A stretch of 41,993 nt of DNA from Planktotalea arctica. Lineage in GTDB: Bacteria > Pseudomonadota > Alphaproteobacteria > Rhodobacterales > Rhodobacteraceae. Below the pieces are notes generated by a model. The model ran no database searches, was not told where the DNA came from, and worked only from the letters and a program-made list of their open reading frames with translations. The translations under genes were made by a program, and so were the position numbers. This document shows positions 28,295 through 41,941 of this stretch, piece after piece (position 1 is the stretch's first letter; each line of letters opens with the position of its first letter). The stretch lies in the NCBI RefSeq assembly GCF_002105285.1, contig NZ_MUHR01000017.1, forward strand, positions 1 to 41,993. Reading direction: 5' to 3'.

Positions 28295-28557
28295 GTGACC
28301 ACATCTGACATCCTGCTGCGCGATTTGGACGTGAAAAATGTATCGCGGCGCAATGCCTGTTCCGAGGCGATGCTGACGGAACTGGATGCCGCCTTTGTAG
28401 ACGCAGGAGTCGACATAAAGGTGCGTATTATTGTTCTGGCAGCCAATGGTCCTTTCTTTTGTGCAGGTCATGACCTTAAGACGTTAACCGCCGCCCATTC
28501 GAACGAGGATGGTGGCAAAGTCTACTTTGCAAATGTGATGGTGATGTGCGCAGCCGC
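28295..28557 (+). pseudogene. Truncated enoyl-CoA hydratase/isomerase gene
   Basis: GTG 28295, with AAGGA upstream, opens a frame with crotonase-family sequence: MTTSDILLRDLD, SEAMLTELDAAFVDAG, VRIIVLAANGPFFCAGHDLK (the oxyanion-hole strand) and GGKVYFANVMVMCAA. Between DLD and SEAM the usual ILTLNRP strand is replaced by a shorter KNVSRRNAC. After about 28557 the similarity ends and the open frame runs on to 28807 through sequence antisense to the FAH gene. About 170 C-terminal residues are absent, so it is a relic. Confidence 0.7.
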
Positions 28558-28614
28558 GACCAAGCCAAAGAGATCGCGCAAAAGGCAAACGCAGATCAAA
28601 TGGCTCCGGCTTAA
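28558..28614 (+). pseudogene. Orphan C-terminal tail of an unidentified gene
   Basis: In a frame different from the hydratase remnant, 28558-28614 reads DQAKEIAQKANADQMAPA and stops at TAA, directly followed by a proper terminator. It looks like the last codons of a lost protein, joined to the hydratase fragment by a deletion. The parent family is not identifiable from 18 residues. Confidence 0.4.
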
Positions 28615-28630
28615 TGCGCCGGAGCTTTTT
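28603..28630 (+). terminator. Rho-independent terminator of the decayed region
   Basis: GCTCCGGC (28603-28610) pairs with GCCGGAGC (28618-28625), with a 7-base loop, followed by TTTTT at 28626-28630. The T-run is on the rightward side, so it served the decayed rightward genes. It lies 9 bases beyond the stop of the convergent FAH hydrolase and may stop that transcript too. Confidence 0.85.
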
Positions 28631-28638
28631 GTGTCCTG

Positions 28639-29493
28639 TCAGGCTGGCAAAACCTTTGATTTCTGCTCGCCCAAACCGGCAATTCCCAAGGTCACAACCT
28701 CGCCGCCATGCAGATATTGCTGCGGTGACTGGCCCATACCCACACCGGGAGGTGTTCCGGTTGAAATCACATCGCCCGCCTGCAGGCTCATGAACTGGCT
28801 GCAATAGGAAACGAGGTGGGGAATCTTGAAGATCAGCGTCGAAGTTGAACCGGTCTGCATCCGCTTGCCATCCACATCCAGCCACATATCCAAGTCATCC
28901 ATGTCTGCGATCTCATCAAGTGTCACAAGCCAAGGTCCAGTTGGCCCAAAGGTGTCGCAGCCTTTGCCCTTATCCCACGTTCCCGCACGGTTAAGCTGAA
29001 AATCACGCTCTGACACATCATTGATCACACAAAAACCAGCGACATGATCCATCGCGTTGGCCTCGTCGATATAGGACCCCGGTTCACCAATAACGACGCC
29101 CAGTTCGACCTCCCAATCCGTTTTGACCGAGCCGCGTGGGACTTGAATATCATCATTCGGGCCGACCACGGCAGAGGTCCATTTGTTAAAGATGATGGGC
29201 TCTTCAGGGATCGGCATGCCCGCCTCTTCGGCGTGATCAGCGTAGTTCAGGCCAATGCAAACGAATTTGCCGATACTCCCGACACAAGCGCCCAGGCGCA
29301 GATCGTCTTGGGGTGTTCCGTCAACCAGTGGCAGCGTTTCCGGATCAAGCGCGTGCAGGGCTTTCAGGCCAGAGGGGCGTAATGTACCGCCAGAAATGTC
29401 CGGCACGACGCCCGACAAATCCCGCACGCGGCCCGATGCGTCCAGAAGTCCGGGTTTTTCTGCGCCTGGTGCGCCATAGCGGAGAAGTTTCAT
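28639..29493 (-). CDS. Fumarylacetoacetate-hydrolase-family protein, probable 2,4-diketo-3-deoxy-acid hydrolase
   Basis: A 284-residue FAH-fold enzyme. Visible are the metal and substrate loop VCIGLNYADHAEEAG, PIIFNKWTSAVVGPND, the KTDWEVELGVVIGE motif with metal-binding Glu residues, and GDVISTGTPPGVG. This subgroup hydrolyses 2,4-diketo-3-deoxy-L-fuconate or -rhamnonate to pyruvate plus L-lactate; ureidoglycolate lyase-like enzymes are the main alternative. AGAGGA precedes the ATG. It is the last gene of the leftward operon, 97 bases after the ATPase gene. The KDF-dehydrogenase-like SDR in the other operon would make its substrate. Confidence 0.82.
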   Translation of the reverse strand: MKLLRYGAPGAEKPGLLDASGRVRDLSGVVPDISGGTLRPSGLKALHALDPETLPLVDGTPQDDLRLGACVGSIGKFVCIGLNYADHAEEAGMPIPEEPIIFNKWTSAVVGPNDDIQVPRGSVKTDWEVELGVVIGEPGSYIDEANAMDHVAGFCVINDVSERDFQLNRAGTWDKGKGCDTFGPTGPWLVTLDEIADMDDLDMWLDVDGKRMQTGSTSTLIFKIPHLVSYCSQFMSLQAGDVISTGTPPGVGMGQSPQQYLHGGEVVTLGIAGLGEQKSKVLPA

Positions 29494-29590: not shown

Positions 29591-31105
29591 TCAGGCGACC
29601 TTATCCGTGGCAGTGATTCCCGAAATAGCCTGAATAAGGCTCTCCTCGGTGACCTCTTGCGAGGCGAACGTTCGCATAACCTTACCTGAGAACATCGCGA
29701 CGATCCGGTCGCTGACGTGCAGTACTTCGGGCATCTCGGAGCTAACCACGATGACAGCATAGCCTTGTGCAGCCAATTCACGGATCAGGTTGTGAATCTC
29801 GGATTTTGATCCCACGTCGATGCCGCGTGTCGGCTCATCCACCATCAGCACTTTGGGATGCATCGACAACCATTTGCCAATAACGATCTTTTGCTGATTG
29901 CCGCCAGACAGATTGCCTACCGTCTGCTTCCAGCCCGGCGTGCGAATATCGAGCTTGTCTTTGTATTTATCAAAAATCTCTGTCTCGGCTCCGGTCGCGA
30001 CAAAGGGGCCGGATGACAAATCACCCACTTGCGGCAGGGTCATGTTATCACGGCAATTCATGCCCAGTACCAAGCCTTGGCCCTTCCTGTCCTCGGGCAC
30101 CAATGAAATACCCTTGCTGATTGCATCGGCGGGGGAAGACACGTGCACTTCTTCACCATCTAACAGAATTGTTCCGGCACTGGGGTTCCGCAATCCAAAC
30201 AATGTCTCAACGATCTCGGTGCGCCCCGCCCCGACTAGACCGTAAAAGCCCAAAACCTCACCACGGCGGACCTCAAAACTAACGTCTTTGAATAAGTCTC
30301 CACAAGAAAGGCCGCGCACTTCTAGGGCTACATTGCCCATCTCGTGATGGCTTGCATTGCGCGACAGATCGAGCGCGCGGCCGATCATCAACTGCGTGAC
30401 CTCTTCTTCGTTGGTGTTGCGGGTCTCAAGGGTGCCACGGTAGGATCCGTCCCGCAGAACGCTAATCCGGTCGGTGATCTTGAAAATCTCTTCCATCCGG
30501 TGAGAAATATAAATGATTCCAACACCCTGGCTTTTTAAGTCGGAGATGACATCAAACAGCACGACTTTCTCGGCGTCGGTCAGGGATGCTGTGGGTTCAT
30601 CAAAAATGACCGCCTTTGCGTCCACGGTAAGCGCACGGGCGATCTCGACCATCTGCTGATTGGCAATCGACAGATCACCAACAATCGTTTTGGCGCTGAA
30701 CCCCACCTTCAGTTTTTCAAGGATCGCATCGGTTTGCGTATAAAGCTTGGCCCAATCCACCCGCCCGAAGGAAAGTTGCGGTAACTCGCCCAGATAGATG
30801 TTCTCTGCGACACTCAGTTCTTCCGCGAGGCTGAGTTCCTGATGAATAAACACAATGCCCTTTGATTTCGCCTGTAAGGGCGAGGTCATGACGGTTGGCA
30901 TTTCCGCTACGATGATCTGGCCTTCTTCGGGCTGATAGATGCCGCCCAAAACTTTCATCAACGTTGATTTTCCAGCGCCGTTTTCCCCCATCAGGGCGTG
31001 GACTTCACCGGGCATCACCGACAAGGAAACACCATCAAGCGCGCGAACGCCGGGGAAGGTTTTGACGATCCCTTCAAGGCGCAAGGCGGGTGGCTGTCCA
31101 GTCAT
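29591..31105 (-). CDS. CUT2-family sugar ABC importer ATPase (RbsA/MglA-like)
   Basis: A 504-residue protein made of two fused nucleotide-binding domains. The first has a full Walker A (GENGAGKST, 40-48) and Walker B (AVIFDEPTASL); the second has the degenerate GLVGAGRTE Walker A normal in CUT2 ATPases and signature LSGGNQQK with VLMVDEPTRGID. It energises import with the two permeases and the binding protein encoded upstream. AGGAG lies before the ATG, which overlaps the permease stop (ATGA). Confidence 0.95.
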   Translation of the reverse strand: MTGQPPALRLEGIVKTFPGVRALDGVSLSVMPGEVHALMGENGAGKSTLMKVLGGIYQPEEGQIIVAEMPTVMTSPLQAKSKGIVFIHQELSLAEELSVAENIYLGELPQLSFGRVDWAKLYTQTDAILEKLKVGFSAKTIVGDLSIANQQMVEIARALTVDAKAVIFDEPTASLTDAEKVVLFDVISDLKSQGVGIIYISHRMEEIFKITDRISVLRDGSYRGTLETRNTNEEEVTQLMIGRALDLSRNASHHEMGNVALEVRGLSCGDLFKDVSFEVRRGEVLGFYGLVGAGRTEIVETLFGLRNPSAGTILLDGEEVHVSSPADAISKGISLVPEDRKGQGLVLGMNCRDNMTLPQVGDLSSGPFVATGAETEIFDKYKDKLDIRTPGWKQTVGNLSGGNQQKIVIGKWLSMHPKVLMVDEPTRGIDVGSKSEIHNLIRELAAQGYAVIVVSSEMPEVLHVSDRIVAMFSGKVMRTFASQEVTEESLIQAISGITATDKVA

Positions 31106-32103
31106 ATCTTCAACTCCTCTTTGCCCTTGGCGTTCAACTGGCGGTCTAGGAACAGAACCGCGATCAGGATCAGGCCAATCACAAGGTTGACGGTCGATGT
31201 ATCAGCACCGATGTGACCCAAGCCCTTGCGCAACAACTGAATTGCCAGAACGCCGCCCAATGTGGATACGATAGACCCTGCCCCACCGGTCAATTTAGTG
31301 CCGCCCAGAACTACGGCCGTAATGACCCAAAGCTCGTAGAGTTGGCCGTCATTGGGATTGACCGACCCGGATTCAGAATAAAATACCACCGCCGACAAGG
31401 CCGCCAGAAAGCCGATGATCATGAAATTGATCAACATGTGCGGACCAACCTTGATGCCTGCATTTACCGCCGCCTCGCGGTTGTTCCCGATGGCATAGGC
31501 GTTGCGCCCGTGCACCGTGCGCGTCATCACGTACCAGATGATCAGTGTCACCACCGCCAGAAACCAAGTCGCTGTGTGAAAACCCAGAAATTGCGCCTCA
31601 GCGAAGTCTACCAAGGTCCAGTTCAGGCTAGAGGTTGGGTTTTCGCCATTGTACATGAACACCAGTCCGCGAAAGCCCAGCATGGACCCTAGCGTTACGA
31701 TGAAAGCGTCAACACCGGTTTTCCAGACGATCAACCCGTTGATCGCACCCAAGACGACACCCGTCAGTAATGCCAGAGCCCAAGACACAGGGATCACCCA
31801 ATCGCCCAAGCCTGCAAAGACAGCCCACGTCATACTGTCGAGCAGTATCACCGCCGACAGCGCAAAAGTGGCACCGACGCTCAGGTCGATATTCCCGTTC
31901 ACCATGATGATCGTCATGCCCATGGCGATAATGCCGATGGGGGCCGATTGCTTGAGCAAAAGTAGCATATTATCGACATCCATGAAGGCCTTGTCTGACA
32001 ACGACATGAATTCACCCGCCACGCTGAAGAAAATCAATTCAAGGACGATAAAGCCCCAGATCGCGCCGTTCTTGAGAAATTTGGACAGTTTTCCAGCTTC
32101 CAT
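31102..32103 (-). CDS. CUT2-family sugar ABC permease
   Basis: A 333-residue RbsC-type permease with about eight to ten helices. The conserved region NIDLSVGATFALSAV (transmembrane loop) and VLGGTKLTGGAGSIVSTLGG mark the BPD_transp_2 family. AGGGAG precedes the start. It is the second of two permease genes, so the transporter channel is probably a heterodimer. The stop overlaps the ATPase start. Confidence 0.93.
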   Translation of the reverse strand: MEAGKLSKFLKNGAIWGFIVLELIFFSVAGEFMSLSDKAFMDVDNMLLLLKQSAPIGIIAMGMTIIMVNGNIDLSVGATFALSAVILLDSMTWAVFAGLGDWVIPVSWALALLTGVVLGAINGLIVWKTGVDAFIVTLGSMLGFRGLVFMYNGENPTSSLNWTLVDFAEAQFLGFHTATWFLAVVTLIIWYVMTRTVHGRNAYAIGNNREAAVNAGIKVGPHMLINFMIIGFLAALSAVVFYSESGSVNPNDGQLYELWVITAVVLGGTKLTGGAGSIVSTLGGVLAIQLLRKGLGHIGADTSTVNLVIGLILIAVLFLDRQLNAKGKEELKI

Positions 32104-32115
32104 TTTTCCGCTCCC

Positions 32116-33090
32116 TTACGCGATATTTGACCAAAGCTTGCCGCGTTTGGCTGCAATATCGAGCCAGACCGCAAGAATAATGATTACCCATGTCACGACG
32201 AACTGGACATAGAACTGAAGACCGACCAGCAGCAAACCGTTCTGGATAAAACCAAGGATCAGCACCCCGATCACAGTTTTGAAGATGGTTCCGGACCCGC
32301 CGAGCAAGGACGCACCGCCCAAGATTACGGCGGCAAGAACATCAAGCTCAAGCCCTTGTCCGACGGTGTTTTGCGATCCCAACGAGCGGCTCGCCTGAAT
32401 AAGCCCGGCTACGGCAACACAGAAGGCGGACATCACATAGCACAAGAAGACTACGCGTGCGCGCTTGATCCCCGAAAAGGTCGCAGCAGTCCCGTTTCCA
32501 CCTACGGCATAAACTGTGCGTCCGAAGGGCGTCTTTGCCAAGATGATGCCCAACAGCGCCGCCAAGAGTACAAAAATCAGAATGGGTACAGGAATTCCCA
32601 GAGCAGATCCTTGGCCAAATACGGCGAACCAAGTACCTTCTTTATCAACGATATCCATGTTCTGACCACCCGAATAGGTCAGGGTCAGGCCATGAATTGC
32701 CGACAACATGCCCAAGGTCACAATCAGAGAATTCAGCTTAAGGTATCCAACCAAAAATCCGATGAACGCACCAAGACACAGGGTCATTGCAAACATCGCA
32801 GGAATAGCAAGCGCCGGACCGATCTTGTCGTGCAGATCAAGCACCACAATGGTAGAGAACGACATCATCGACCCGACAGACAAGTCGAGGTTGCCGCTAA
32901 TGACAACAAAAGTCACGCCAAGCGCCATAACCCCTAGAATGGCCGACGAACGCACCACACCCATAACATTGTCAGGGCTCAAAAAGCGTTCGTTTGCCAA
33001 AGTAAAGCCGATGATGAACACCGCAAAAGCAATCAAAATGCCTTGCCGTGCCAAAAACCGTCCGATGTCTGCTTTCGACATGCTCGCCAT
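32116..33090 (-). CDS. CUT2-family sugar ABC permease
   Basis: A 324-residue RbsC-type permease: NLDLSVGSMMSFSTIV and VILGGASLLGGSGTIFKTVIG match the family. ATG 33090 is chosen because GGGAGGG lies directly upstream; the longer frame to 33132 is unsupported. The 12-base gap to the next permease indicates one operon. Its partner on the 3' side shares the same fold but differs in sequence. Confidence 0.92.
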   Translation of the reverse strand: MASMSKADIGRFLARQGILIAFAVFIIGFTLANERFLSPDNVMGVVRSSAILGVMALGVTFVVISGNLDLSVGSMMSFSTIVVLDLHDKIGPALAIPAMFAMTLCLGAFIGFLVGYLKLNSLIVTLGMLSAIHGLTLTYSGGQNMDIVDKEGTWFAVFGQGSALGIPVPILIFVLLAALLGIILAKTPFGRTVYAVGGNGTAATFSGIKRARVVFLCYVMSAFCVAVAGLIQASRSLGSQNTVGQGLELDVLAAVILGGASLLGGSGTIFKTVIGVLILGFIQNGLLLVGLQFYVQFVVTWVIIILAVWLDIAAKRGKLWSNIA

Positions 33091-33136
33091 ATTTCCCTCC
33101 CATGGGCCAAAGGCCCGGCCATTGTTGGCCATTTCG

Positions 33137-33934
33137 TCAGACCAATGTCATCCCACCATCGATCATGACGATTTGTCCGGTCATGTAATCACTATCTTTG
33201 GACGCCAAATACGTCGTTGTTCCTGTGATATCTTCCGTCTTTGCAACGCGCCCCCGCAGGATTTCCGATGAGAATTCCTCCATCGCCTGTCCTGGCCGGT
33301 CGGCGGCACCAATCTCCATCAAGTCCTGATCAACTTGTTCCCACATCTCGGTGGCCACCACACCGGGCGCAAAGCCTGTGACGGTAATGTTATGCTTTGC
33401 CAAATCGCGTGCACCCGATTGGGTTAACGCCACGACGGCGAATTTACTGGCACAATACGGGGCAACATTGTCAAACCCCTGACGGCTGGCGATGGATGCC
33501 GTGTTGATGATTTTGCCACCAGTGCCCTGGGCAATCATTTGATGGGCCGCTTCTTGCATGCCAATCATGCAGCCCAATCCATTGACCCCCATGATAAAGT
33601 TCCAGTTATCTTCGGTCACTTCAAGAAAGTTCATCGGGCGGTTCACGCCAGCATTGTTGAATTTCACATCAAGCTTACCAAAGACCCGAACCACATGCGC
33701 GATCATCGCTTTGACTGACAAGCGGTCCGTTACATCGACCTGCGCGTAGGTGACCTTGCAGCCATGCTGCGTCGCTCTGTCAATATTTGCATCCGCAACT
33801 TGTGCAACCTTATCGCCATTGATGTCTGCAAAACATACGTCAGCACCTTCAACCAATAGTGCCTCGGCAATTGCGCGCCCGATACCTTGCGCCGCACCTG
33901 TCACAATACATGACCTACCAGTCACACGCCCCAT
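33137..33934 (-). CDS. Short-chain dehydrogenase/reductase, sorbitol-dehydrogenase-like
   Basis: A 265-residue classical SDR. The nucleotide loop is GAAQGIG (13-19), D36 after the second strand suggests NAD preference, the NNAG motif follows, and the catalytic residues are S147, Y160 and K164 (PYCASKFAV). The C-terminal part (WEQVDQDLMEIG...DYMTGQIVMIDGG) closely parallels the rightward SDR at 37057, so the two are paralogues with probably related substrates. It lies between the binding-protein gene and the permeases, an unusual slot for an enzyme. Confidence 0.88.
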   Translation of the reverse strand: MGRVTGRSCIVTGAAQGIGRAIAEALLVEGADVCFADINGDKVAQVADANIDRATQHGCKVTYAQVDVTDRLSVKAMIAHVVRVFGKLDVKFNNAGVNRPMNFLEVTEDNWNFIMGVNGLGCMIGMQEAAHQMIAQGTGGKIINTASIASRQGFDNVAPYCASKFAVVALTQSGARDLAKHNITVTGFAPGVVATEMWEQVDQDLMEIGAADRPGQAMEEFSSEILRGRVAKTEDITGTTTYLASKDSDYMTGQIVMIDGGMTLV

Positions 33935-34011: not shown

Positions 34012-34980
34012 TTAGAACACAGGCTTTGTGAACTCCGCCTGGTTATCTTGCGTGATCTTTGGTGTGTCGAAGTAGTTGAGGAACGGAAGCTCTTTACCGC
34101 CAATCAGATCAATTGCGGACTGAAGCGCTGCTTCTGCGTCATCAACGGGCGACTGATAGATCGAACCCCAGTATTCGCCGCGCTCCATGGCCTCATAACC
34201 AACTGCGAAGTTGGTTGCGCCGACGAAGGTGATCCCTTCGGCACGGTCTGCCGCAAGTGCAGCGTTCAGGGCGCCAACACCCATGTTATCATCGCCAGCA
34301 TAGACACCGTCGATGTCGTCATACTTCACAAGAAACGCTTCCATAACCTGCTGGGATTTTTCACGGTTCCAGTCGCCGGGCTGTGTCTCAACCAGCGTGA
34401 CGTTCGGGCACACTTGTGGCAAACGATCGTCGAAGCCTTGTTGGCGCTCAATGGCGGTCGTGTAGCCAGGCTGGCCAGAAATCTGCACAACGCGCGCTTC
34501 GTTTTCGATTCCGAGGTCCTTGAACCGATCACACATGATTTCAGCGGAACGCGACCCTTGCGTGACGTTGTCGGGGCCAGAGAAGGTTGCGACGAATTCG
34601 AAACCGGCTTCGGCGATATTGGAGTTCGTTACAACAACCGGAATGCCAGCAGAATGCGCCTTGCGCACAGCTGGGATCACCGCTTCACCGTTTGTCGGCC
34701 AGATAATAATGGCATCAACTTCCTGCTGGATCAGGTCTTCCATCTGAGCGATCTGGCGGGCGACATCGCCACCGGCATCAAGGACGACGACTTCGACACG
34801 CTCATTTGCTTCAGCTGCTGCGATGAACGATTTTTCATATGTTGTCTGGTAGCTATCGACGCCGACGTTGTTCTGGGTGATGCCAATGCGCATTGGGCTG
34901 TGGCTATCCGCGTAAGCTACACCAGCGATAGTCAGTGCTGTCGTTGCAGCAGTTGCAGTCAGGATTGTGCGTAGTTTCAT
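34012..34980 (-). CDS. Periplasmic sugar-binding protein of the CUT2 ABC importer
   Basis: A 322-residue periplasmic-binding-protein-I-fold protein. The signal peptide is about 1-24 (MKLRTILTATAATTALTIAG and onward, AYA). The fold pattern is clear: RIGITQNNVGVDSYQTTYEKSF, DAIIIWPTNGEAVIPAV, GIPVVVTNSNI, and DGVYAGDDNMGVGALNAA. Ligand identity is not readable. ATG 34980 has GGAGGAG upstream; TTG 34995 is rejected. It is the first gene of the leftward operon, separated from the divergent regulator gene by the control region. Confidence 0.93.
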   Translation of the reverse strand: MKLRTILTATAATTALTIAGVAYADSHSPMRIGITQNNVGVDSYQTTYEKSFIAAAEANERVEVVVLDAGGDVARQIAQMEDLIQQEVDAIIIWPTNGEAVIPAVRKAHSAGIPVVVTNSNIAEAGFEFVATFSGPDNVTQGSRSAEIMCDRFKDLGIENEARVVQISGQPGYTTAIERQQGFDDRLPQVCPNVTLVETQPGDWNREKSQQVMEAFLVKYDDIDGVYAGDDNMGVGALNAALAADRAEGITFVGATNFAVGYEAMERGEYWGSIYQSPVDDAEAALQSAIDLIGGKELPFLNYFDTPKITQDNQAEFTKPVF

Positions 34981-35110
34981 CGTTTTCTCCTCCAAGAAAT
35001 TAGTAGACTTTTACGTCTGCTCCCCGCTCTCCCAAGGGGGAATCACCATTCGGAATCCCGATGTGATCTCTTCAACCTTGCCGTGAGCGTCCCACCACAA
35101 CCTCCAAAAT

Positions 35111-35150
35111 AATATCCATTCTGAGGACTAATAAGTCCATTTTGGATATT
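35111..35150. promoter_or_regulatory. Nested inverted repeats, operator candidate of the divergent operons
   Basis: Outer arms AATATCCA (35111-35118) and TGGATATT (35143-35150) enclose inner arms GGACT (35125-35129) and AGTCC (35134-35138). Centred near 35131, the element lies 69 bases before the regulator ATG and 150 bases before the binding-protein ATG, within the only control region for both operons. The symmetric, AT-rich outer site is what a dimeric winged-helix protein might bind. It would also overlap the regulator's own promoter. Confidence 0.55.
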
Positions 35151-35199
35151 TTTGCGATACATTTCGAAGCCATTCCCACACCACAATGAGGCGTAGCTC

Positions 35200-37032
35200 A
35201 TGACGATTCCAAAATCACCCGAAACGGACAAATCACGTGGCCGGGGCCAATCGCGCCATCGCCACACTATCAAGAAGGTAGCGACAGAAGGTATGAATGT
35301 CATGAGGGCGGATAATTTCAATCAGCTCATGCCGCCTCAGGCAAAAGCTGATATGTTGAGCGTTCTGTCCTTCATGCAAGGCCTTGGCGATGAGTTAGAG
35401 AATTCGTCCGAATTGTTTGCGTCCACGCCGAACCTACGCATTACAATGCATCTGATACGAGGGCATCTTGAGGGGCGACTCTCGACGATGACATCCCTGA
35501 TCGGAGCCAGCCGTGCGCCCTACGCAACGGCCAATCGCCGCATAAAAGATATGCAAGAAGCAGGGTTAATTGATCAGCGACCGCGTACTGCAACCGGAAA
35601 GAGCTTTTCATTGCATCCAAGCATTCATCTGCTGGAACAATGGACACAGTTAACGAGCCGCGTGCACCGCCTTGCAAGTGCACAATTCAGCGGCACCGCT
35701 ACAGCAGAAACATCCGACTACTATTTTGGCGGATCATACCTGAGTGCGAAATCGATTCCTCCAATGAAGGTCCTCGCCGAGCCGCTCAAGCTGACGGGGG
35801 GGCTGCGCGTACTGGTACATGGCGATCCGACCTTCATGGTGATGGACAACCTCAAACGCCAGTTTGAACAGACCATCGGCACGCAGATTCATCAACGTGC
35901 CTTTTCCATTGATCGCCTGCACGAAGAAACAGTGCGCAACGCAAGCCGTAAATCGAGCAATTACGACATCATTGCCGTTGATCTGCCTTGGGTCGGCGGC
36001 TTCGCTGAAAAGAACGTGTTGATGCCTCTTGATGAGGTCATGGATATTGCCCGTATCGATCCATCCGATTTCCACACAGCTGGCTGGCAAGCCGCCCACT
36101 GGGGCGGTCGCGCGTACGGTATCCCGGCACAAACGACTCCGGAACTCTTGTTCTACCGCAAAGATCTTTTTGCGCAGGCAGGGCTTGAACCACCCACAAC
36201 CACCCAAGAGTTACTGAACGCCGCAAAGGCGCTGCACGATCCACAACGCGGGCAATATGGCATAGCGTGGAACGCGGCGCGCGGGACGGCATTGGGTCAC
36301 ACGGTCCTGATGACATTGGCAGATTTTGGTCAGCCCATCCTTGACCTGACCCCGAATGCTGGCGGCTTTGATACCCAGCATCTTGCCAACCGTGACTATC
36401 GCTTCACGATTGATACCCCTGCGGCATTGGAAGCGGCAGAGTTTCTCAAAGATCTGCTCAACTATTCGCCCCCCGATATTCTTTCGATGTCATGGTATGA
36501 ACGCATTCGCCCCTATGCCGCGGGGCGGATTGCTATGGCTTACGGTTACACGCTGCTTGCCCCCTATTTTGAACTTGATGAGGCGTCGCCTGCCAAGGAT
36601 CAGACCGGATACCTGCCACACCCTGCGGGACCTAACGGGGCGCCTATCTCACCAGTTGGCGGCTATCTAATGGGAATACCCGCCAACCTGCCAAAAGAAC
36701 GTGTTGCAGCGGCGGTCGAGGCCTTGCTGGTCTTCACCTCACCCTCGGCACAAAAGCTGTATGTCCAGAACGGAAGTCGTACCAATCCACGCTATTCAGT
36801 GGGTTCAGACTCCAGCGTTCGCCGTCTGTCCCCGATATTCGAAGCGATCGACGGGATGTCCTGGCGCGACGAACTTCAGTTCTGGCCGAGGCCACCGATC
36901 CCCGAAATCAACAAAATCATCCAGATTTGTGGAGAAGAATTTCACGACATGCTGCGCGGTATCATCAGCCCCCAAGACGCACTGCACCGCGCTCAGCAAA
37001 GAGCGGACGCAACCCTACAACCACCAATATAA
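35200..37032 (+). CDS. Winged-helix / family-1 solute-binding-protein fusion, probable transcriptional regulator
   Basis: A 610-residue soluble protein with no signal peptide. The first 50 residues are basic and disordered. About 51-145 resembles a MarR-type winged helix: LRITMHLIRGHLEG, then LIGASRAPYATANRRIKDMQEAGLIDQRP with a helix-turn-helix and wing. From about 200 to 600 it matches the extracellular solute-binding family 1 (GLRVLVHGDPT, YDIIAVDLPWVGGFAEKNVLMPLDE, ELLFYRKDLFAQAGLEPPTT, IPANLPKERVAAAVE). Without export this domain must sense a ligand in the cytoplasm. E. coli SgrR is a precedent with a family-5 domain. Start choice between ATG 35200 and ATGs near 35293-35302 is open. Confidence 0.8.
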   Translation: MTIPKSPETDKSRGRGQSRHRHTIKKVATEGMNVMRADNFNQLMPPQAKADMLSVLSFMQGLGDELENSSELFASTPNLRITMHLIRGHLEGRLSTMTSLIGASRAPYATANRRIKDMQEAGLIDQRPRTATGKSFSLHPSIHLLEQWTQLTSRVHRLASAQFSGTATAETSDYYFGGSYLSAKSIPPMKVLAEPLKLTGGLRVLVHGDPTFMVMDNLKRQFEQTIGTQIHQRAFSIDRLHEETVRNASRKSSNYDIIAVDLPWVGGFAEKNVLMPLDEVMDIARIDPSDFHTAGWQAAHWGGRAYGIPAQTTPELLFYRKDLFAQAGLEPPTTTQELLNAAKALHDPQRGQYGIAWNAARGTALGHTVLMTLADFGQPILDLTPNAGGFDTQHLANRDYRFTIDTPAALEAAEFLKDLLNYSPPDILSMSWYERIRPYAAGRIAMAYGYTLLAPYFELDEASPAKDQTGYLPHPAGPNGAPISPVGGYLMGIPANLPKERVAAAVEALLVFTSPSAQKLYVQNGSRTNPRYSVGSDSSVRRLSPIFEAIDGMSWRDELQFWPRPPIPEINKIIQICGEEFHDMLRGIISPQDALHRAQQRADATLQPPI

Positions 37033-37056: not shown

Positions 37057-37866
37057 ATGGACCCCAACCGCCTCAAAGGTAAAAACATTCTCATCACAGG
37101 TGCCGCACGCGGCATGGGCGAGGCCAACGCACGTTCCTTTGCTGAACAAGGGGCCAATGTCTGTATCGGTGATCTATACCTCGACATGGCAAAAGCTGTC
37201 GCAGATGAGATCAATGCAGCTGGCAATGGTATGGCGATTGCCGTCAAAATGGATGTCACCAAACGTGAAGATAACGCCACCGCCGTGGCCGCGACTGTCG
37301 CAGCGTTCGGATCAATCAACGTAGGTGTGTTCAACGCTGGCCTGAACAAACCCCGGTTCTTCATGGATATCGATGAAGACAACTGGGACATGATCATGAA
37401 CGTCAACACCAAGGCGATGTGGCTGGGTATGCAGGAAACCGCGCGCCAGATGATCGAACAGGGGCCAATGGACGGTCACCCTTACAAGTTGATCAACGTC
37501 GGCTCCATCGCTTCGCGCAAGCCGCTAATTGATGTCACAGTTTATTGCACATCAAAATATGGCTGTCTGGCGCTGACACATTGTGGTGCCCTTGGTCTTG
37601 CAGAGCACAATATCACTGTAAACGGCTACGCACCGGGCGTCGTTGTGACCCCGCTTTGGGAACAGCTCGACAAGGACCTTGTTGATATCGGCTTCAAGGA
37701 AAAGGAAGGCCAGGCCTACGACGACATCGTGCGCGATGCGTTACAGATCAAGCGCGTATCTTACCCCAAGGACATCGTCGGCACCGCATCCTTCCTTGCG
37801 TCAGACGACAGCGACTACATGACCGGCCAGATGATCCACGTCGATGGCGGCTGGTGCATCCAATAA
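37057..37866 (+). CDS. Short-chain dehydrogenase/reductase, paralogue of the leftward-operon SDR
   Basis: A 269-residue classical SDR with GAARGMG (15-21), D39 for probable NAD preference, and catalytic S150, Y163 and K167 (VYCTSKYGC). It shares with the SDR at 33137-33934 the C-terminal pattern APGVV-x-T...WEQ(L/V)D(K/Q)DL and SDYMTGQ. It starts 24 bases after the regulator stop, opening the enzymatic part of the rightward operon. Polyol or sugar oxidation is likely; the substrate is unknown. Confidence 0.88.
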   Translation: MDPNRLKGKNILITGAARGMGEANARSFAEQGANVCIGDLYLDMAKAVADEINAAGNGMAIAVKMDVTKREDNATAVAATVAAFGSINVGVFNAGLNKPRFFMDIDEDNWDMIMNVNTKAMWLGMQETARQMIEQGPMDGHPYKLINVGSIASRKPLIDVTVYCTSKYGCLALTHCGALGLAEHNITVNGYAPGVVVTPLWEQLDKDLVDIGFKEKEGQAYDDIVRDALQIKRVSYPKDIVGTASFLASDDSDYMTGQMIHVDGGWCIQ

Positions 37867-37926
37867 CGGCCCACCCTTTTCAAATCGCAAATGCAGACGA
37901 GGCCTAGCGCCTCGAAGGAGCCTTCA

Positions 37927-39237
37927 ATGTCAGAACGTCCGAGCAATGCCCTTATGCCAAACCTGCTCACCCCAATGGATCTTGAGCCGAATTGGGAATG
38001 GCGCGACAAGCTGCCGGCCCATGGCCACATGTCCGTGGATTTTGAAAATCGGGTAAACCACGACCGCTTGCGTCGTTACCGTCTTGCACGGACCCGTCAG
38101 TCCCTCCAAAACTCGAACGCGGGCACGCTACTTTTGTTTGATGTGAACAATATCCGCTACGTATCGGCCACCAAGATCGGTGAATGGGAACGCGACAAGA
38201 TGTGCCGCTTCTGTCTTTTGACTGGTGATGACAGCCCATACGTTTGGGATTTTGGATCCGCGGCAGAGCACCACAAACGCCATTCCGATTGGCTGGAACC
38301 CAGCCACTGCCTTGCTGGCGTTGTCGGCATGCGCGGAACCATCCCGCCGGAATTCGGATTGATGCAGAAATATGCCAAGCAGATCGCCGGATTGATCCGC
38401 GATGCAGGCATGGGCGATATGCCCGTTGGTGTGGACTATGCTGAAACGGCGATGTTTCACGCGCTGCAACAAGAAGGTCTCAATGTGGTCGATGGCCAAC
38501 AGATCATGTTGGCAGCGCGCGAAATCAAAAATACGGATGAAATCCAGCTTTTGACCCAAGCCGCTGCTATGGTCGATGGCGTCTATCACATGATCTACGA
38601 AGAGCTGAAGCCGGGCATCCGCGAGAACGACATCGTCGCCCTATCCAACAAGATGCTCTACGAGATGGGCTCCGACGACGTCGAGGCGATCAACGCCATT
38701 TCCGGTGAGCGCTGCAACCCGCATCCGCATAACTTCACCGACCGTCTTATCCGGCCCGGCGATCAGGCGTTCTTTGATATCCTGCAATCCTACCAAGGCT
38801 ATCGCACCTGCTATTACCGCACATTCAACGTTGGCCGCGCAACACCCTCGCAAACCGACGCCTATACCAAGGCCCGCGAGTGGATTGATGCCTCCATCGC
38901 GATGATCAAACCGGGAGTGTCCACGGATAAGGTGGCCGAGGTTTGGCCAACAGCCCAAGAGCTTGGCTTTGCGAATGAAGATCAAGCCTTTGGTCTTCAA
39001 TTCGGTCACGGGCTTGGGCTGGCATTGCACGAACGGCCCATCATTTCACGCGCGGTATCGATGGATCATCCGATGGAGATCAAGACCGGCATGGTCTTCG
39101 CTCTGGAAACTTACTGCCCTGCAACCGACGGCTATTCCGCTGCGCGGATCGAAGAAGAGGTCGTGGTGACGGAAACAGGGTGCGAGGTCATCAGCCTCTT
39201 CCCTGCGGAAACACTGCCGATCGCGAACCGGTACTGA
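37927..39237 (+). CDS. M24-family (aminopeptidase-P/DddP-like) protein with an altered metal site
   Basis: A 436-residue creatinase-N plus pita-bread M24 protein. AAGGAG six bases upstream fixes ATG 37927. The N-domain (about 48-195) has LLLFDVNNIRYVS; the catalytic domain has D284, H361 (FGHGLGL), E394 (FALET) and E409 in RIEEEV. In normal M24 metalloenzymes an Asp lies 11 residues after the first Asp; here that position is C295 (YRTCYYRTF). Length and N-terminal pattern recall the DMSP lyase DddP, but DddP retains its Asp ligands. The reaction is unknown; its place among SDRs suggests hydrolysis or lyase chemistry on a sugar-derived acid. Confidence 0.8.
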   Translation: MSERPSNALMPNLLTPMDLEPNWEWRDKLPAHGHMSVDFENRVNHDRLRRYRLARTRQSLQNSNAGTLLLFDVNNIRYVSATKIGEWERDKMCRFCLLTGDDSPYVWDFGSAAEHHKRHSDWLEPSHCLAGVVGMRGTIPPEFGLMQKYAKQIAGLIRDAGMGDMPVGVDYAETAMFHALQQEGLNVVDGQQIMLAAREIKNTDEIQLLTQAAAMVDGVYHMIYEELKPGIRENDIVALSNKMLYEMGSDDVEAINAISGERCNPHPHNFTDRLIRPGDQAFFDILQSYQGYRTCYYRTFNVGRATPSQTDAYTKAREWIDASIAMIKPGVSTDKVAEVWPTAQELGFANEDQAFGLQFGHGLGLALHERPIISRAVSMDHPMEIKTGMVFALETYCPATDGYSAARIEEEVVVTETGCEVISLFPAETLPIANRY

Positions 39238-39238
39238 T

Positions 39239-40003
39239 ATGGGCAACCCATTTGACCTGACCGGTCGAAAAGCATTGGTCACTGGCGGAGCAACCGGCAT
39301 CGGCGAGGGCATTGCCCTCGGCCTTGCGGCCGCCGGGGCCGATGTAGCACTGACCTATCGCAGCCATCAACCCGACGACACTATGGCAAAGATCAAGGCG
39401 TTGGGTGTCAAAGGTGCCACCATGAAAGCCAACTTCTCCGGCATGGATGAAGCCGCGGCCGAGGATGTGGTACGCTTTGCCGATGACGAATTGGGCGGGC
39501 TTGATATTCTGGTCAATAACGCCGGGATCATCCACCGCGAAGACAGCACTGACATGCTGCTTGAGGATTGGCGGCACGTGCTGTCGGTGAACCTTGATTC
39601 TGTATGGCTGCTGTCTCAGGCGGCGGGCAAGCGCATGGTGGCCCAAGGCTCGGGCAAGATCATCATCGTTTCCTCTGTATTGGCATCGCAAGGCGGTCTG
39701 CGTGTTCCAGCATATGTTTCCAGCAAACACGCTGTAGTCGGTCTAACAAAGGCACTTTGCAATGAGTGGGCACCGCACGGTGTCAACGTCAATAGCATCG
39801 CACCTGGCTACACCGCCACAGACAACACGCAAGCGCTGCGCGACGATCCGGACCGCTCAAAAGCGCTGCTCGAACGCATTCCAGCGGGCCGTTTTGCCGA
39901 CCCTTCAGAAATCGCAGGTGCTGCGGTTTTTCTGGCGTCTGACGCCGCCAATTATTGCCACGGAAGCGTGGTCACAGTCGATGGTGGCTGGCTCGCCCGC
40001 TAG
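39239..40003 (+). CDS. Short-chain dehydrogenase, KduD/gluconate-5-dehydrogenase-like
   Basis: A 254-residue classical SDR. GGATGIG (16-22), NNAG (93-96), S145/S146, Y159 and K163 (AYVSSKHAV) are all present. The overall pattern (FDLTGRKALVTGGATGIGEGIA; KIIIVSSVLASQGGLRVPAY; SIAPGYTATDNTQALRDDP) matches 2-deoxy-D-gluconate 3-dehydrogenase or KduD types, which oxidise sugar acids. It starts one base after the M24 stop, so translation is coupled. Confidence 0.88.
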   Translation: MGNPFDLTGRKALVTGGATGIGEGIALGLAAAGADVALTYRSHQPDDTMAKIKALGVKGATMKANFSGMDEAAAEDVVRFADDELGGLDILVNNAGIIHREDSTDMLLEDWRHVLSVNLDSVWLLSQAAGKRMVAQGSGKIIIVSSVLASQGGLRVPAYVSSKHAVVGLTKALCNEWAPHGVNVNSIAPGYTATDNTQALRDDPDRSKALLERIPAGRFADPSEIAGAAVFLASDAANYCHGSVVTVDGGWLAR

Positions 40004-40013
40004 GAGAGAGACT

Positions 40014-40757
40014 ATGGAACAATCACTTAAAGGGAAAATCGCTCTGATCACTGCAGCCGGAGCAGGAATCGGACGCGCCAGCGCTGAAGCGCTTGCCGCG
40101 CGCGGCGCACAGGTCGTCGCGACGGATCTGAACGGCGATCTGGTTACCGATCTGGCAGATACCTGCCCTCACATCACAGGCCACGCGCTGGACGTGCTGG
40201 ACGCTGAGGCGATTCACACACTTGTCGCTTCTGTCGGACCTGTCGACATACTGCTCAATTGTGCGGGCTGGGTACATGATGGCACGATCCTTGATTGCGA
40301 TGACGACGTCTGGGATCGTGCCTTTGATCTGAATGCAAAGGCGATGTATCGCATCACACGTGCGGTGTTGCCCGGGATGCTCGCCAAAACGTGCGGGTCG
40401 ATCATCAACATCGCCTCTATCGTCTCTAGTGAGAAAGGCGCACCGCGCCGCTTCGCCTATGGTGCGTCAAAGGCGGCAATTATTGGCATGACCAAGTCCA
40501 TCGCTGCTGACTTCGTCAAGGACGGTATTCGCTGTAACGCAATCTGTCCTGGCACCGTGCAAAGCCCGTCTTTGAACGACCGCCTAAACGCGACCGGTGA
40601 TTTCAACAAAGCCCTAGCTGCTTTCAAAGAACGCCAACCTATGGGGCGGCTTGGCCAACCCGAGGAAATCGCCGAAATGGTATGCTATTTGGCAGGTGAC
40701 ATGTCTGCCTTTACCACAGGGCAGGCTTTTGCCATCGATGGTGGATGGTCAATTTGA
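40014..40757 (+). CDS. Short-chain dehydrogenase, 2-keto-3-deoxy-L-fuconate dehydrogenase-like (DHRS6 group)
   Basis: A 247-residue SDR. ATG 40014 follows AGGAGAG; the frame upstream overlaps the previous gene and is rejected. The nucleotide loop is atypical (AAGAGIG) and catalytic residues are S135, Y149 and K153. The arginine-rich run before the tyrosine (KGAPRRFAYGASKAA) and RCNAICPGTVQSPSL are marks of the DHRS6/BDH2 group, which includes the enzyme oxidising 2-keto-3-deoxy-L-fuconate to the 2,4-diketo acid. That product is what the FAH hydrolase would cleave. Substrate stereochemistry is inferred. Confidence 0.85.
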   Translation: MEQSLKGKIALITAAGAGIGRASAEALAARGAQVVATDLNGDLVTDLADTCPHITGHALDVLDAEAIHTLVASVGPVDILLNCAGWVHDGTILDCDDDVWDRAFDLNAKAMYRITRAVLPGMLAKTCGSIINIASIVSSEKGAPRRFAYGASKAAIIGMTKSIAADFVKDGIRCNAICPGTVQSPSLNDRLNATGDFNKALAAFKERQPMGRLGQPEEIAEMVCYLAGDMSAFTTGQAFAIDGGWSI

Positions 40758-41941
40758 TGGGACTGGACCGTGCAGCTTCAATCGATGATCTGCGGCTACG
40801 CGCCAAAAATCGCATCCCGCGCTTTGCGTTTGATCTGGTGGATGGCGGAGCCGAAAGCGAGCGCAATATGCGGCGCAACACAGAAGCGTTCGAGGAAGTT
40901 GAACTTACGCCGCGCTATATGGTCGATGTATCCAACATCGACATAAGCGCGACCGTGTTCGGGCAAACCTTCGACGCTCCCCTTGGCATGGCACCGATCG
41001 GTATGCTTAACGCATTCTGGCCGGGTGCCGACCTGACGCTCGCGCAGCTATGTAAGGCGAAAAACATTCCTTATACCGCCAGTTCTGCCTCTTCGACCAC
41101 GCTGGAGGAACTTGCCGAAGCTGCCGATGGCAACGGTTGGTTCCAGCTGTACGTGTCTCGTGATCCAACTGTGACCGAAGGCTTGATCGCACGAGCAGAA
41201 GCGGCTGGCTACACAACATTGATGGTCACCGCGGATGTCCCAGCCGCAGGTAAGCGTGACCGCGACATCCGTAACCAGCTTGCTGTGCCCTTCCGGTTTA
41301 CGCCCGAAGTGATCTTGCAGTGTGCAATGAACCCGCGTTGGGCCCTGACCAGCCTGAAACATGGAAAGCCAAACGTGGCGAACTATGCCGACCTTTTGCA
41401 AAGCGCGACGTCCTACGCGGATGTGCAAAAAACCTTGATTACACCGGGGTTCACCTGGGAAGACCTCAAACGCCTGCGTACGCGCTGGAAAGGCCGGCTT
41501 CTGGTCAAGGGAATCCTGCATGCCCAAGACGCCCTATCCTGCACAGAATTGGGCTGCGATGGGATAATCGTGTCTAACCATGGCGGCCGTCAGGTGGCCT
41601 TTGGCCCTCCAACGATCGAAGCATTGCCCTCCATTGCCGAGGCTGTCGCAGGCCGCATGACCATTATCCTCGACAGTGGCATCCGGCGCGGCGCAGATAT
41701 CTTGCGCGCAAAGGCCCTTGGGGCCGACTTCGCGCTCGCAGGTCGTGCGTTCGCCTATGGTGTTGGTGCAGGTGGTAACGCAGGCGCGCAACACGCGTTT
41801 GAAATATTACAGTTGGAGCTGATCCGCGCTTTGGGGCAACTTGGCATCCCGTCTTATGAGACTATCGGTGCGTCTGAACTCAGCACATTCAAAGCAACGA
41901 CGTCTTCGGATCAATCGTCTATTCAGCTTGATTACCCCTGA
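40757..41941 (+). CDS. FMN-dependent alpha-hydroxy-acid oxidase/dehydrogenase, LldD-like but altered
   Basis: A 394-residue FMN TIM-barrel enzyme. The catalytic H275 and R278 (SNHGGRQ), K251, Y132 (QLYVS) and T158-x-D160 are present. The N-terminal substrate-binding Tyr of lactate and glycolate oxidases is L27 (FDLVDGG), and the segment after HGGRQ reads VAFGPP instead of the usual LDG-type sequence, so the substrate may not be L-lactate. The start overlaps the SDR stop (TGATG); ATG 40745 is an alternative adding four residues. It closes the visible rightward operon. Confidence 0.85.
   Translation: MGLDRAASIDDLRLRAKNRIPRFAFDLVDGGAESERNMRRNTEAFEEVELTPRYMVDVSNIDISATVFGQTFDAPLGMAPIGMLNAFWPGADLTLAQLCKAKNIPYTASSASSTTLEELAEAADGNGWFQLYVSRDPTVTEGLIARAEAAGYTTLMVTADVPAAGKRDRDIRNQLAVPFRFTPEVILQCAMNPRWALTSLKHGKPNVANYADLLQSATSYADVQKTLITPGFTWEDLKRLRTRWKGRLLVKGILHAQDALSCTELGCDGIIVSNHGGRQVAFGPPTIEALPSIAEAVAGRMTIILDSGIRRGADILRAKALGADFALAGRAFAYGVGAGGNAGAQHAFEILQLELIRALGQLGIPSYETIGASELSTFKATTSSDQSSIQLDYP

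Follow-up and report, generated by a model that had tools for sequence, protein, structure and literature searches.

The gene at 35200..37032 on the forward strand of the window (the whole stretch of Planktotalea arctica DNA that was analyzed, 41,993 nucleotides) is a single open reading frame of 610 aa with an ATG start, and with a probability of roughly 0.85 we read its product as a cytoplasmic one-component transcription factor: its winged helix would sit on an operator, its solute-binding domain would sense an intracellular ligand, and it would control both divergent operons. The architecture, predicted fold, family, conserved neighborhood and conserved tandem palindrome were all established computationally, and from them we infer DNA binding, the nature of the ligand, allostery and the direction of control. 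We also lean, less firmly, toward a broader reading in which this protein represents an undescribed, widespread family of one-component regulators, mislabelled “extracellular solute-binding protein,” that joins a complete importer-type Venus-flytrap to a MarR-like winged helix and reads the closure of the former via two operators; the principle known from SgrR would then have arisen twice, independently.

The family-1 solute-binding domain (35803..37014, forward strand; residues ~202-605) is recognized by Pfam in the whole regulator, both SBP_bac_1 (residues 253-519, E 2e-29) and SBP_bac_8 (E 1e-22) being above cut-off, and it is homologous along its whole length to family-1 sugar-binding proteins such as 5iai and 1eu8. 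A comparison of the regulator with PDB sequences matched 101 different chains at E <= 1, and every match among the 60 listed fell within residues 200-604, with the same two sugar-binding proteins the best, and Foldseek of the full-length model again returned sugar-binding proteins with 5iai at the top (E 1.6e-22). This domain is more strongly conserved than the DNA-binding domain: positions such as D261, W264, Q311, T313, E315, W357 and R564 are invariant across 70 members, and W264, W357 and R564 are invariant also in 18 diverse members (of the 80 best loci, 69 were in alignment A2 and 68 in alignment A4, each with the window sequence added). Such long runs of invariant positions would fit a binding cleft that has been kept, and they make it unlikely that this is a DNA-binding regulator whose solute-binding domain has lost small-molecule binding and is used for protein contacts or oligomerization only.

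The first ~190 residues are a domain of their own. Within them, the MarR-like winged helix (35335..35688, forward strand; residues ~46-163) is placed by TubR/MarR profile matches, AlphaFold models and Foldseek, and it lies under all Pfam cut-offs. No HTH family was matched at E <= 0.1 when the whole protein was searched with Pfam; the N-terminal domain alone gave a weak match to MarR_2 (E 0.098) that does not reach the curated MarR sequence cut-off (13 vs. 27 bits). The N-terminal domains of 16 of the 18 members matched MarR_2 at E <= 1 (best 4.6e-5), and a profile built from the 18 domains matched TubR in the PDB (E 1.5e-4) and, more weakly, MarR-type proteins (E 0.007 and 0.013). Modeled in isolation by AlphaFold (residues 49-168, mean pLDDT 88), the domain runs helix-helix-helix-helix-strand-strand-helix, and the top 25 PDB structures that Foldseek matched to it are, by title or by known family, all proteins of the MarR family, e.g., HcaR, MexR, HosA and PefR (best E 4e-4, TM about 0.5). 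The full-length AlphaFold model, with medium confidence overall (mean pLDDT 71.8) and low values at 1-48, 65-73, 160-184 and 526-562, shows helices at 77-90, 97-104 and 108-120, strands at 124-128 and 136-140, a long helix at 142-163 and the solute-binding domain from 202. The regulator shares with MarR the winged-helix fold, MarR proteins being the nearest solved folds of the isolated domain, but unlike MarR it carries a 400-residue solute-binding sensor and sits below the Pfam MarR cut-offs. The first-pass annotation had proposed exactly such a fusion of a MarR-like DNA-binding domain with a complete solute-binding protein, and here Pfam SBP_bac_1, the winged-helix profile, AlphaFold and Foldseek agree with it; of the two domains it named, Pfam finds SBP_bac_1 and misses the HTH, which is recovered by the family profile and the predicted fold.

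The regulator family is widespread in Alphaproteobacteria. A species-genome collection scanned with an 18-row alignment yielded 496 pattern stretches, 475 of them encoding a relative, and the best 80 relatives were kept, all labelled Alphaproteobacteria and with 65% identity or more in the best segment. The winged-helix profile, applied at E 1e-15, picked up 54 of the 292 genomes in the sample of the order (ten of the 54 with two or three copies) and 6 of 398 in the phylum sample, one of these outside the class; at E 1e-3 there was a match in 44 of 385 genomes of the class sample. The nine strong places in that class sample (E < 1e-35) lie in frames of 564-641 aa, which leaves room for the solute-binding domain. 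Weaker winged-helix matches (L126-L144) carried Response_reg in 8 of 10 scanned proteins, with the winged helix as the C-terminal output domain, and response regulators with a MarR-like winged helix are the closest wider relatives of the domain in the class sample; they possess a receiver domain and a C-terminal winged helix, whereas the regulator here has a solute-binding domain and the winged helix at its N-terminus. Any match at all was found in 1172 plasmid records and at least 80% query coverage in one place in 34; the 30 listed of these 34 come from Phaeobacter, Tritonibacter, Marinovum, Skermanella, Agrobacterium, Shinella, Rhizobium and others, and 24 of the 30 are annotated “extracellular solute-binding protein.” No second protein combining an HTH with SBP_bac_1 was recognized among the 10 PF01547 places in the window's own genome, where one other long PF01547 frame (592) begins with a signal-like segment and the remaining eight places were judged from frame length only.

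The plasmid annotation and the fact that Pfam detects the solute-binding domain alone speak, along with the hydropathy from Met32 given below, for a conventional view: an ordinary exported binding protein of an ABC importer, with an odd or mis-called N-terminus whose helices do not bind DNA. Location was judged here by hydropathy, a crude measure that alone fails to separate every member. From Met1, the regulator peaks at 0.22 over 12 residues in its first 45, vs. 1.58 for the neighboring binding protein SBP4, and by this measure it has no lipoprotein signal and, as the first-pass annotation had maintained, no signal peptide; the case is less clear from Met32, where the peak of 1.36 (top of 70 members, 1.62) is not far under the exported control. 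The frames of 11 plain solute-binding proteins peak at 1.88-2.52 within their first 120 residues. The real start is perhaps Met32 (35293), and many relatives' alignments begin only at about residue 32. Export is nevertheless unlikely because the winged helix stands in front, and the conventional view as a whole is very improbable: the N-terminal domain is conserved family-wide and models as a MarR winged helix, there is no hydrophobic segment from the Met1 start, and the adjoining importer is of the RbsABC type with its own Peripla_BP_4 protein. No MalF/MalG-type (BPD_transp_1) permease was found in the regulator's neighborhood, the scanned permease being BPD_transp_2.

In a tree of the solute-binding domains, 25 fused rows (two of them the same gene) group together with one unfused protein, in locus L172, at their base, a topology that, because of this basal unfused protein, is compatible with one origin of the HTH-SBP fusion or with several. 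The unfused protein (L172:4746-6092) is 40% identical to the sensor domain; it is encoded in the operon of an ABC importer, close to DAO-type and GcvT-type genes, and could give a clue to the ancestral ligand. It has a signal-like N-terminus, unlike the regulator, which has no signal-like segment and carries a winged helix instead. At another locus (L176, genome G730), a single RbsABC-type importer has a family regulator on each side, the two being paralogs on opposite strands, all within 10 kb.

The divergent intergenic region contains two 15-bp palindromes, TATCCA-N3-TGGATA, 21 bp apart, which the double-site model predicts to be a tandem operator (35108..35153, no strand assigned): core 1 (35113-35127, TATCCATTCTGAGGA) has one poor half-site, and core 2 (35134-35148, AGTCCATTTTGGATA) was found by the pattern too. 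The motif was studied in 79 regions, those of 78 of the 80 loci and of the window, with L106 (without SBP4) and L104 (region length) left out. Exact ATCCA-N3-TGGAT occurs in 42 of the 79, any such repeat reaching at most 2 in ten shuffles, and the half-sites recur at 21-bp spacing in divergent regions. A 46-position double-site model, seeded with the double palindrome, scores 28.8-60 bits in all 79 regions (50.3 in the window) and never above 17.2 bits in five shuffled data sets refitted identically, the regions being related by ancestry and the shuffles testing sequence pattern rather than independent origin. The distance from core 1 to the SBP4 start codon is 122-142 bp in 71 of 78 loci (full range 116-172; 78 of the 79 SBP4-bearing loci were used). 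MarR-family proteins usually have palindromic operators in divergent promoter regions. The conserved tandem palindrome, fitted in 79/79 regions and new here, adds evidence for a regulator role.

From Roseobacteraceae, the predicted operator is conserved in part as far as a relative outside the class and an alphaproteobacterial genome of 1.4 Mb. Among 18 distant members (33-69% identical), a relaxed form of the palindrome, picked after an exploratory look at the same upstream regions, is found exactly upstream of five (shuffle mean 0.018, maximum 1) and in 8 of 861 windows elsewhere in their loci; with one mismatch allowed it is found in 8 of 18 (shuffle mean 0.38; elsewhere 45/861), a tally that alone includes L180, probably the same locus as L062, which was already used for the model. 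It is missing upstream in 10 of the 18 even with one mismatch, in stretches that start at approximate ORF starts and may miss true sites. The 21-bp tandem is kept in L174, the locus outside the class, and in L177.

Another regulator might bind the conserved palindromes, the protein described here acting elsewhere, and L174, which also contains a LacI-type gene, offers some encouragement for that idea. We think it decidedly improbable: there was no other regulator among the 10 scanned proteins of the cluster (all but permease 1 and SDR dehydrogenase D), and palindromes of the same form accompany some members that are just 33-54% identical. When as many as 3 mismatches were allowed, the double site was found at 0 places in the window's own genome (by hand count, the site in the window takes 4), and the single site, searched with at most 2, was near background (67 vs. 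48 for a control pattern), so that no wider regulon is recognizable there by double- or single-site search. The promoter scan found no sigma-70-like promoter. A terminator-like hairpin (35125-35138) lies inside the operator and overlaps both cores; one was found, vs. 0.3 in shuffles.

Regulators that couple an HTH to a binding-protein-like sensor are known, and the regulator belongs to this one-component principle. SgrR of E. coli and DsvR/Vca0578 of Vibrio cholerae combine an HTH at the N-terminus with an SBP_bac_5 domain at the C-terminus, and SgrR regulates itself negatively (PMC13060122, a preprint). The protein here resembles SgrR and DsvR in placing an HTH before a solute-binding domain in one soluble regulator, but differs in that its binding domain is SBP_bac_1, its HTH is MarR-like and its gene adjoins an RbsABC-type importer; the first-pass annotation had cited SgrR as a precedent with a different binding family, and the contrast of SBP_bac_5 with SBP_bac_1 upholds this. 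The shared domain order (PMC13060122) is the one point in favor of counting the regulator as an SgrR family member, which we regard as scarcely credible and rejected on domain content: neither the SgrR-type N-terminal domain nor SBP_bac_5 was matched by Pfam in the regulator up to E 0.1, nor was there any such match for the N-terminal domains of the 18 members up to E 1. LysR joins an HTH to a PBP II sensor, according to PMC5882156, and the LacI-type protein of L174 has a LacI domain with Peripla_BP_3; LacI and LysR share with the regulator an HTH with a periplasmic-binding-protein-like sensor, but both the HTH and the sensor families differ. No described regulator family with the architecture seen here was found in the open-licence literature, in line with what had been supposed from the sequence at the outset, and the architecture, being undescribed in that literature, makes the regulator a good candidate for naming as a family.

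We picture the transcription factor as working in the following way. The MarR-type winged helix would bind the paired TATCCA-N3-TGGATA palindromes, whose 21-bp spacing corresponds to two helical turns; winged helices would dimerize on each palindrome and so place two dimers on one face of the DNA. In the MarR family, the ligand site is in the dimer interface; here, an intracellular ligand would be enclosed by the Venus-flytrap at the C-terminus, a relative of importer binding proteins, and closure could change how the protein is seated on its two sites, the dimers being bridged or moved. The regulator would in this manner control two operons, the divergent one of the transporter and its own with the SDR and M24 genes. 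Autorepression and ligand-dependent control of the importer are suggested by the nearly constant distance of the sites from the transporter start and by their closeness to the regulator's own start; by analogy with SgrR, we would bet on autorepression combined with ligand-dependent activation of the transporter operon.

The genes on either side speak to the ligand. On the reverse strand, the importer comprises SBP4, its RbsB-like periplasmic binding protein (34012..34980; Peripla_BP_4; listed from TTG 34995, with the ATG at 34980 preceded by a GGAGGAG ribosome-binding site), ABC permease 1 (32116..33132, assigned by conserved position), ABC permease 2 (31102..32103, BPD_transp_2) and an RbsA-like double ATPase (29591..31105, domain search); the same strand carries SDR dehydrogenase A (33137..33934, domain search and conserved neighborhood) and an FAA-hydrolase-family enzyme (28639..29493, domain search), for which the nearest NCBIfam model is 2,4-didehydro-3-deoxy-L-rhamnonate hydrolase, below cut-off (402 of 500 bits). 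SBP4 does belong to a different family from the regulator's SBP_bac_1 domain, as had been claimed; it is the importer's own binding protein, and the label “sensor” for it is an interpretation. Downstream of the regulator, on the forward strand, lie SDR dehydrogenase B (37057..37866) and an M24-family hydrolase, distantly DddP-like (37891..39237), both assigned by domain search and found in 57 of 57 fully flanked loci, followed by a KduD-like SDR dehydrogenase C (39239..40003; 317 bits, below the cut-off of 339), SDR dehydrogenase D (40002..40757; ORF list and neighborhood, start approximate) and an FMN-dependent, L-lactate-dehydrogenase-like enzyme (40745..41941, domain search). The DMSP lyase DddP was the best NCBIfam model for the M24 neighbor, an identity rejected at 125 bits vs. 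a cut-off of 600; the neighbor's best PDB match is 4s01 (E 1.1e-23), titled “Peptidase M24,” a DddP structure.

The regulator is divergent from SBP4 in 79 of 80 related loci, the exception being L106, without SBP4. Complete flanks are available for 57 of the 80 loci (those 17,500 bases long or more). All 57 contain the importer, SDR B and M24, and their lower pathway comes in two types: in 25 of the 57 it consists of SDR C, SDR D and LldD, usually accompanied by FAH, as at 39239-41941 of the window; in 31 of the 57 it has the TPP-dependent E1 alpha/beta genes also present on a Phaeobacter plasmid, along with E2 and an aldehyde dehydrogenase, as at L032:18110-25112. No locus of the 57 has both, and L098 fits neither fully. 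The regulator travels with the shared upper part, from which its ligand should stem; because one and the same core is combined with either of two lower pathways, the ligand would most probably be the imported substrate, something like a sugar or cyclitol, or else an early intermediate. Cyclitol-like substrates are hinted at by the IolE, Gfo/Idh/MocA and intradiol dioxygenase genes that lie beside some relatives.

The 1.4-Mb alphaproteobacterial genome (G089, locus L173) is very small, yet it encodes a member of the regulator family along with SDR B, M24, IolE and an importer of the RbsABC type. The regulator is 33% identical there, yet SDR B is 57% and M24 65% identical, near a myo-inosose-2 dehydratase. 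The pathway thus extends to a streamlined alphaproteobacterial lineage.

If the proposed reading is true, many “exported” binding proteins are cytoplasmic transcription factors, and for marine and soil Alphaproteobacteria these loci are miscounted as transporters and misplaced in regulon maps. With its predicted operator the regulator can be tested straight away, and its sensor domain offers a way into an uncharacterized catabolic pathway that keeps its upper part from roseobacters to the 1.4-Mb genome. The protein would further be a natural example of a DNA-binding domain driven by a domain like maltose-binding protein, of use in biosensor design.

Two smaller points concern gene content. A rhamnose operon, which has been associated with Phaeobacter plasmids, found no support in the genes annotated on them. 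In the window, a short ORF (28295-28807), matched in 1 of the 80 related loci, has a start that by eye resembles the N-terminus of an enoyl-CoA hydratase and is possibly a remnant.
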